64,000 nt of DNA from Synechococcus sp. MVIR-18-1 (lineage in GTDB: Bacteria > Cyanobacteriota > Cyanobacteriia > PCC-6307 > Cyanobiaceae). The stretch is taken from NCBI RefSeq assembly GCF_014279835.1, contig NZ_CP047942.1, forward strand, positions 930,001 to 994,000. Direction: 5' to 3'. The translations under genes and the position numbers were made by a program. The notes under the pieces are model-generated. The model saw only the letters and a list, made by a program, of their open reading frames with translations. It had not been told where the DNA came from and made no database searches. Below are positions 56,269 through 62,843 of the stretch, one piece after another (positions within the stretch are counted from its first letter, which is position 1; every line of letters starts with the position of its first letter).

Positions 56269-56320
56269 TTGAGGTTCCTCAGAAATCCAGGTCCCCGTTC
56301 CGTGGCCTGGCGAGTCTGCG

Positions 56321-56398
56321 CCTCACAGATGTGAGGTGAACGTTGTGTAGCGGCTGCTACGAGTCATTCATAGCAACAACAACCGCCTTCTTGTTGTT
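56321..56398. ncRNA. Three consecutive perfect hairpins (possible structured RNA)
   Basis: Within 78 bases upstream of the DUF4278 gene lie CCTCAC-AGAT-GTGAGG (56321-56336), GTAGC-GGCT-GCTAC (56347-56360) and AACAACAA-8-TTGTTGTT (56375-56398). All stems are perfect. They sit in the 310-base gap 56269-56578, which holds no gene on either strand. Minus-strand reading would place them in the DUF4278 leader. No known riboswitch consensus is recognised. Confidence 0.45.
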
Positions 56399-61434: not shown

Positions 61435-61625
61435 AGGAACTTCGATCTTTTGCTCTAACTATACGAGAGCCTCTGGCGTCTGGATGTATCCATAAAGGCG
61501 GATACCACCCTTATTCCATCTGCTCCAGTGCCGACCTCACTCTCTCAAGATCAATCCCTCACCGAGCGAAGGTTTTGAATGCCCTCTGAATAGCAGCAAA
61601 GCTGAAGCTGCCTATTGCGTTAGAC
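61435..61625. other. Short gap, no gene
   Basis: No coding frame of convincing length on either strand. It probably holds the promoter of the membrane-protein gene at 61168. Confidence 0.3.
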
Positions 61626-61654
61626 AAAAGAAAACCCCGCCAAAGGCAGGGTTT
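61626..61654 (-). terminator. Intrinsic terminator, minus strand
   Basis: AAACCCCGCC at 61632-61641 and GGCAGGGTTT at 61645-61654 form a ten-bp stem with one mismatch and a three-base loop. The minus-strand side ends in TTTTCTTTTG. The nearest upstream minus-strand gene is at 61888, 234 bases away, on the far side of the small-RNA candidate. Confidence 0.6.
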
Positions 61655-61778
61655 CTCGGCTTCTCCTTGGGCGTGTTGCCTTGTTTCCACTCCGTGAAGA
61701 AGCCCTCCTCACAGATGAATCATGCCTCAGAAATCTTGCTGAGCAATCCCCCACGTATCAGTTGGTTGACTGTTCTGC

Positions 61779-61866
61779 GGAATTTCATCAGCATGTGCTC
61801 GGTCAATTCCCTACAAGGTTTGACTCCTCACACCCCCCGAAGAAGGCTTAGTCGCCTTCTTTTTTT
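61779..61866 (+). ncRNA. yfr1-like: Yfr1-like small RNA candidate
   Basis: The stretch has the layout of the cyanobacterial regulatory RNA Yfr1: a 5' hairpin (GGAATT at 61779-61784 with AATTCC at 61805-61810, inner stem AGCA-TG-TGCT), a single-stranded region with the exact 11-base core ACTCCTCACAC at 61823-61833, a C-rich linker and a perfect 3' terminator (AGAAGGC 61841-61847, GCCTTCT 61854-61860, seven T). Established knowledge: Yfr1 uses this core to bind mRNAs of outer-membrane porins and lies between guaB and trxA in most cyanobacteria. Here the context is different and the length (about 88) is longer. A promoter was not recognised. A plus-strand ORF-like frame crosses it, but the RNA fit is much better. 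Confidence 0.65.
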
Positions 61867-61887
61867 ATGCCTTGGTTCGCTCTTAAT

Positions 61888-62112
61888 TCAGGCTCCTCCC
61901 ATCTCGGCTGCTCGTGAAAGTGGGGTAACCAGAGCTTTGCAGGTCTTGGTGAGGTGCTGCCCCTGCTGCAGCTGTTTTCGCCGGATGCTGCAGGCCAGCA
62001 GTGTTCTGCAGTGGGCATCCACGCCATAGGTGAAGTGATGGAAGGTTTGGCAGATCCGAGGTCCTTTCCAGCCCTCAAGCTCCAGCTCACCGACAAAGCT
62101 CCACTCCTCCAT
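61888..62112 (-). CDS. Small Cys/His-rich conserved hypothetical protein
   Basis: This 74-residue protein begins MEEWSFVGELELEGWKGPRI and contains CQTFHHFTYGVDAHCRTL and an ACSIRRKQLQQG segment with a later C in LTKTCKAL. The H/C pattern could bind metal. It looks like a short family of marine picocyanobacteria, but no function is known. It lies on the opposite strand, 21 bases past the Yfr1-like RNA's terminator. Confidence 0.65.
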   Translation of the reverse strand: MEEWSFVGELELEGWKGPRICQTFHHFTYGVDAHCRTLLACSIRRKQLQQGQHLTKTCKALVTPLSRAAEMGGA

Positions 62113-62540: not shown

Positions 62541-62726
62541 ATGGCGAGGCTTGCACGATCGGGATCATCGGCAAGTCCGCACATTTTCTTAGGACTTCAG
62601 ATCACCGTGCATCCGCTGCTGCCTGTTGACCAGCCAGCACTCACCGTTGGACTTCTCCTTTTATCTGGCGTAATCGGGTTGCTGCTGCCTCATCAGTGTT
62701 TTTGGCTGGATTGCCCATTGCGTTGA
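62541..62726 (+). CDS. Possible small membrane protein
   Basis: A 61-codon frame with one hydrophobic stretch (LTVGLLLLSGVIGLLLP). No ribosome-binding site and no family. It occupies most of the 330-base gap 62512-62843, in which nothing else is seen. Confidence 0.3.
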   Translation: MARLARSGSSASPHIFLGLQITVHPLLPVDQPALTVGLLLLSGVIGLLLPHQCFWLDCPLR

Positions 62727-62843
62727 GGCCTCTTCCCTCGAAAGGATGAGTTTTAGATCAACTGGGCAAGCCGGATGTTCGGATTAATACCACTGGTCTT
62801 TGGCTGTGTAAGCGAGTATTGAGAAATTTCTGAACGCTTTTAA

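Follow-up and report, generated by a model that had tools for sequence, protein, structure and literature searches.

A probable Yfr10-type small RNA divergent from a Yfr2 gene in Synechococcus sp. MVIR-18-1

Yfr10 has been described as a small RNA that shares the sequence motif of Yfr1, but not its locus or structure, and that is otherwise poorly conserved; its motif is placed in a loop that caps a stem (Lambrecht et al. 2019, PMC6778093). According to that paper, high-light Prochlorococcus has Yfr10 upstream of Yfr2. The two RNAs interact, Yfr10 has been verified in Synechococcus WH8102, and Yfr2 restored Yfr1-repressed expression in a reporter. In Prochlorococcus MED4, Yfr10, Yfr12 and Yfr18 each adjoin a gene of the Yfr2 family, with which pairing was proposed, and Yfr10 and Yfr2 are arranged in tandem with a shared precursor (PMC2518516). 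Extra copies of the motif near Yfr2 in MED4 had been noticed earlier (PMC2190773), in a paper which gives Yfr1 as lying between guaB and trxA in 25 and 27 of 31 genomes, with its 11-mer in an unpaired stretch of 16-20 nt. Mutual action among small RNAs is known for Yfr1, Yfr10 and Yfr2 in abundant marine phototrophs.

The Yfr1 motif and its relation to Yfr1 proper

The window analysed here is a stretch of 64,000 nucleotides of the Synechococcus sp. MVIR-18-1 genome. A motif search found a sole exact match to ACTCCTCACAC in it, at 61823-61833 on the plus strand, as a preliminary description had reported; the mean number expected by chance in the window is 0.02, and the motif was present in 2 of 100 shuffles. 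The features of the locus are given below, where R1 is a model built here, partly from sequences later found.

61622-61655, minus strand: Yfr2 terminator, with a stem at 61655-61631 followed by a T-rich tail
61654-61718, minus strand: Yfr2 (Cyano-1, RF01701) small RNA, 57.1 bits against a cut-off of 41
61754-61775, no strand assigned: conserved central block CGTATCAGTTGGTTGACTG..., a candidate shared control region (identity 0.89)
61801-61866, plus strand: Yfr10-type small RNA, putative extent and start; R1 match, with high conservation from 61802 to 61866
61802-61824, plus strand: conserved 5' hairpin, stem GUCAA/UUGAC at 61802-61806/61820-61824, from folds and pairing in 33 sequences
61807-61819, plus strand: hairpin loop, carrying CUCCUCAC in many relatives and degenerate in the window copy (alignments)
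61823-61833, plus strand: exact Yfr1 11-mer ACUCCUCACAC, its first two letters in the stem and the remainder forming the linker seed
61839-61866, plus strand: intrinsic terminator and T run

The preliminary description took the core, a 5' hairpin and the terminator as the full layout of Yfr1, either relocated or present as a second paralog. In favour of a moved or additional true Yfr1 are the exact 11-mer, the order of hairpin, linker and terminator, and the similar length. However, the Rfam Yfr1 model (RF01116) gave 14 bits at 61813-61862 against a cut-off of 38 bits, so that a second paralog fails the covariance-model test which that description had itself proposed. The genome (2,451,974 bases in one contig, with three exact cores) holds Yfr1 at 867466-867522 on the minus strand with 69.2 bits, and a family search identified its neighbours as a GuaB3-family IMP dehydrogenase-related protein (TIGR01304, 526.6 bits) and the thioredoxin trxA (TIGR01068, 140.8 bits). 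The guaB-trxA place, about 62 kb outside the window, is occupied by this Yfr1, which rules out relocation. One Yfr1 above cut-off is present in all 31 genomes of the genus, two of which (G013 and G024) have one extra match each below it. Moreover, 23 of 33 aligned relatives begin the core with G in place of A, and the predicted unpaired linker (61825-61838) has 14 nt and not the 16-20 nt of Yfr1. A copy of Yfr1 proper is thus very improbable.

The bare 11-mer is in any case weak evidence of a Yfr1-like RNA. It occurs 94 times in the 31 genomes of the genus, compared with 54 occurrences of the reversed letters (columns summed); R1 matches account for 29 of the 94 and sites antisense to Yfr2 5' ends for another 16, and the other 49 are mostly the 31 Yfr1 genes.

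Hairpin, extent and upstream sequence of the window RNA

The 88-nt stretch 61779-61866 folds better than shuffles (z -3.36). The intrinsic terminator was correctly recognised from the outset, as a terminator-like site at 61839-61862 with a T tail, and 97.3% of its cells are paired across 33 aligned sequences. The succession of hairpin, linker with core, and terminator is likewise conserved in relatives, but the 5' hairpin first proposed is not. The stem folded from its coordinates uses GGAAUU at 61779-61784, which is in the least conserved part of the aligned copies and not common to them, and this hairpin was rejected. Mean column identities over 20 copies (the 21 full copies of the unit described below, without L080) were 0.95 for the Yfr2 terminator (61622-61656), 0.94 for the Yfr2 body, 0.81 for 61719-61753, 0.89 for 61754-61775, 0.73 for 61776-61794, 0.63 for 61795-61801, 0.88 for the conserved hairpin, 0.95 for the linker seed and 0.94 for the terminator of the Yfr10-type RNA. 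The same 20 copies were used in the fold alignment. The RNA probably starts near 61801 and would be about 66 nt long, because the conserved hairpin is 61802-61824 and the one originally proposed is not conserved. The corresponding R1 match, G000:C1:991795-991866, scored 93.9 bits with a model that was built with this sequence included.

For the pairing analysis 39 stretches were considered and 33 aligned, the window reference standing for L052. Those dropped were L055 (Yfr1 itself), L080 (cut by a contig end), L068 (no different from L067 in this stretch) and L062, L084 and L087 (weak or broken). The second pair of the hairpin is C-G in 23 of the 33 and U-A in 10, and is broken in none; the A which completes the exact 11-mer in the window copy is a partner in this compensated pair. 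The core is accordingly not wholly unpaired, as had been supposed: its first two letters (61823-61824) are in the conserved stem and the rest is in the linker. The observed number of double-changed cells in the hairpin was reached by none of 500 shuffles, a value inflated by relatedness, and the number of pairs with double changes showed no excess (283 of 500 shuffles reach it). Two pairs are unpaired in 8 sequences each, and sliding the partners by 1-3 columns lowered the covariation values. Overall, covariation support for the hairpin is modest.

Upstream, TTGAC is found in the central block in 18 of 21 copies, and TTGACT at 61766-61771 may be a -35 element for the plus-strand RNA. Its combination with CAGCAT at 61789-61794 as a promoter pair is only a suggestion. 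A promoter scan gave no site in the central block or ahead of the Yfr10-type RNA.

The Yfr2 neighbour and copies of the divergent unit

With Rfam gathering scores as threshold, two elements were found in the whole window, a glutamine-II riboswitch (56286-56345, minus strand, 57.1 bits against a cut-off of 33) and Cyano-1, ie Yfr2. The Yfr2 gene, which is absent from the preliminary description, is on the opposite strand and divergent, 77 bp from the R1 match. Its 5' end, UGUGAGGAG, is complementary to the Yfr10-type seed in a perfect run of 9 nt, which was reached by 22 of 5000 dinucleotide shuffles. The unconstrained duplex energy of the 5' part of the Yfr10-type RNA with Yfr2 was no better than that of mononucleotide shuffles, 141 of 500 of which reach it.

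The window RNA is an sRNA-like element that has the Yfr1 motif but is distinct from Yfr1, and it adjoins Yfr2, though divergently instead of in tandem. The seed in its loop is degenerate, whereas a loop seed is present in many homologues; for this reason it is called Yfr10-type here and not assigned strict membership. It probably belongs to the known Yfr10 type and is not a moved or extra Yfr1. A Yfr10-type small RNA forming a divergent unit with its Yfr2 antagonist is, with considerable confidence, the best explanation of the locus, and confidence is not higher because the loop position mismatches the published Yfr10.

By this account the Yfr10-type RNA (about 61801-61866, plus strand) and Yfr2 (61654-61718, minus strand) would be read outward from a centre of about 80 bp, each stopping at its own terminator. 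The Yfr10-type RNA would have CUCCUCACAC mostly exposed between the 5' hairpin and the terminator, and the probable partners of this seed are GUGAGGAG-like sites in mRNAs. Yfr2 would pair with the same seed through its 5' end and block it, as reported for Yfr1/Yfr10 and Yfr2 in Prochlorococcus MED4. The two predicted RNA genes, their complementarity, the conserved hairpin, the fixed spacing and the repeated copies can be read from the DNA itself; expression, targets and titration by Yfr2 in MVIR-18-1 are extrapolated from Prochlorococcus, and transcription and its start site are likewise presumed.

The divergent unit measures about 250 bp and is bounded by a terminator at both ends. The genome has five Yfr2 genes above cut-off and five Yfr10-type candidates by model R1, and three full copies of the unit: that in the window and those at 1406.6k and 2026.0k. 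The latter two align with the window from 61625-61626 to 61872-61874, ie to the outer ends of the terminators. Beyond these limits, in stretches of 10 kb, short extra pieces match for the 1406.6k copy and none for the 2026.0k copy. The two further R1 matches, at 1409.2k and 1409.5k, are tandem Yfr10-type RNAs (G000:C1:1409211-1409535, L051) which have no Yfr2 within 2.5 kb and are upstream of a frame that by eye resembles ruvA.

When 61560-61900 was used as query, matches were obtained in 24 of the 31 genomes of the genus, many of them to the Yfr2 part or to a short repeat at the left end alone; among 40 fetched loci the whole unit was covered by 21 stretches in 9 genomes. R1 gave 68 matches at E <= 0.01, also in 24 of the 31 genomes. 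Within 400 bp, 36 of these have a divergent Yfr2 and 5 a convergent one, and 27 are without (some on short contigs). The gap to the divergent Yfr2 is 74-82 bp for 34 of the 68, in 16 genomes, and 39 of 103 Yfr2 matches have a divergent Yfr10-type partner. These counts describe the family and do not measure a rate, because R1 is partly self-derived and 150 first-look candidates were scored per genome. Under stricter filters and at E <= 1e-4, 6 of 201 family genomes match R1, all of this genus. Within the genus, the unit would have been copied as a whole.

Around the DUF3303 gene downstream of the unit, R1 matched one of nine loci, the window's own, over spans of about 1.5 kb on each side (less for L152) and with filters that can miss matches; a strain-specific insertion site is only suggested. 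Short dispersed sequences are also found nearby. That at 61563-61618, left of the unit, is a repeat of about 55 bp which occurs in many places in this and congeneric genomes; another, 62609-62752, is about 735 bp from the window unit and directly abuts the end of the Yfr2-Yfr10 unit in G001 (L095, L096) and G022 (L105). In G005, G010, G020 and G029 (L124, L130, L121 and L131, respectively) the Yfr10-type RNA and Yfr2 are convergent and 55-72 bp apart, ie adjacency is kept but orientation is not.

The window copy might instead be a decaying, unexpressed relic of the repeated unit, and several observations are consistent with this: its loop seed is degenerate, the copies in this genome have otherwise unrelated flanks, 1374986-1375054 holds a Yfr2-like remnant (17.1 bits) and the promoter scan gave no promoter-like site. 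However, its stem pairing, linker seed and terminator are all intact, and two copies in G001 (772.9k and 1026.2k) share the A-type core together with a changed loop. We consider a relic unlikely.

Seeds, candidate targets and comparison with known systems

In many relatives of the Yfr10-type RNA the hairpin loop and the linker each contain a CUCCUCAC seed. A two-seed pattern (CTCCTSAC, 5-20 nt, CTCCTCACA) had 53 matches, spread over 25 of 400 family genomes; 22 of the 31 genomes of the genus account for 50 of them and three of the 369 others for the remaining 3; among the rows returned there were none for the backward pattern. The three matches outside the genus (L181, L182 and L205), none of which has the layout of hairpin plus terminator, were left out of the sequence set, which comprises 44 distinct sequences, two of them from contigs labelled as other bacteria. 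Across these 44, at least four different stem sequences carry the first seed in their loop, with the second immediately downstream of the stem. Mean unpaired probabilities were 0.64 for the first seed and 0.60 for the second, neither being fully open, and L087 was an outlier to the layout (0.04). The window copy does not match the pattern, having lost the loop seed (TTCCCTACAAGGT), and is an ordinary family member with one remaining seed. In named genomes the Yfr10-type pattern occurs on 7 contigs, 5 labelled Synechococcus and 2 other; L089 and L090, labelled Phycisphaerae and Gammaproteobacteria, carry Synechococcus Yfr10-type sequence and are probably misbinned metagenome contigs.

We put forward tentatively, as a distinct possibility rather than the expected outcome, that in this genus a fixed divergent module of regulator and antagonist is copied as a block, and that its two-seed regulator, with CUCCUCAC in loop and linker, is kept across at least four stem sequences. 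If so, an RNA with two seeds could bind a pair of Yfr2 molecules at once or, alternatively, an mRNA and Yfr2 together, and single-seed copies such as that in the window would shift the balance. Units at a fixed distance, with one or two seeds and with or without a partner, would be a natural series for the balance of mutual titration.

Candidate targets were sought as GTGAGGAG 2-14 nt before ATG in the MVIR-18-1 genome. There were 23 rows (22 sites, one of them twice) compared with 8 for the reversed control; three are antisense to Yfr10-type loci. Two sites precede open frames of more than 100 aa, which encode a glutamate decarboxylase (TIGR01788, 592.6 bits) and a protein with an AraC-type HTH domain. 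At the former (L212, G000:C1:458258-458274) GTGAGGAG is 6 nt before ATG and is the full complement of CUCCUCAC, making glutamate decarboxylase a possible target. The sites are leads only, because the similarity of the motif to a ribosome-binding site inflates the counts. No porin was among these exact 8-mers in this genome, and the regulation of porin mRNAs suggested in the preliminary description found no link to the window RNA in this analysis. Titration, proposed there as well, is reasonable, and the likely partner would be the Yfr2 next door.

Neither a two-seed form nor a divergent multicopy unit came up in the titles and abstracts searched, and the two-seed family with its fixed divergent spacing might be new to a specialist. 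Yfr10 beside Yfr2 is already published for Prochlorococcus. The available parts of PMC5069720, PMC7368042 and PMC2662882 hold nothing on the window RNA: Yfr103, at 290-328 nt (PMC5069720), is a different RNA, and the matches to 'Yfr10' in PMC7368042 come from the longer names Yfr106-108.

Compared with Yfr1 (RF01116), the window RNA has in common the core 11-mer and the order of hairpin, linker and terminator, but it is far below the cut-off, at another locus and with another hairpin, and the first two letters of its core are paired. The neighbouring member of the Yfr2 family (Cyano-1, RF01701), at 57.1 bits above the cut-off of that family, is not the RNA under study but its likely antagonist. 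A further close likeness is to MED4 Yfr10, with Yfr12 and Yfr18, which as described also have the Yfr1 motif outside guaB-trxA and directly beside a Yfr2-family gene (PMC2518516, PMC6778093). The arrangement is tandem in MED4 (PMC2518516) and divergent in the window, and the motif is described as being in a loop there, whereas the surviving motif of the window copy is in the linker and many of its relatives have both.
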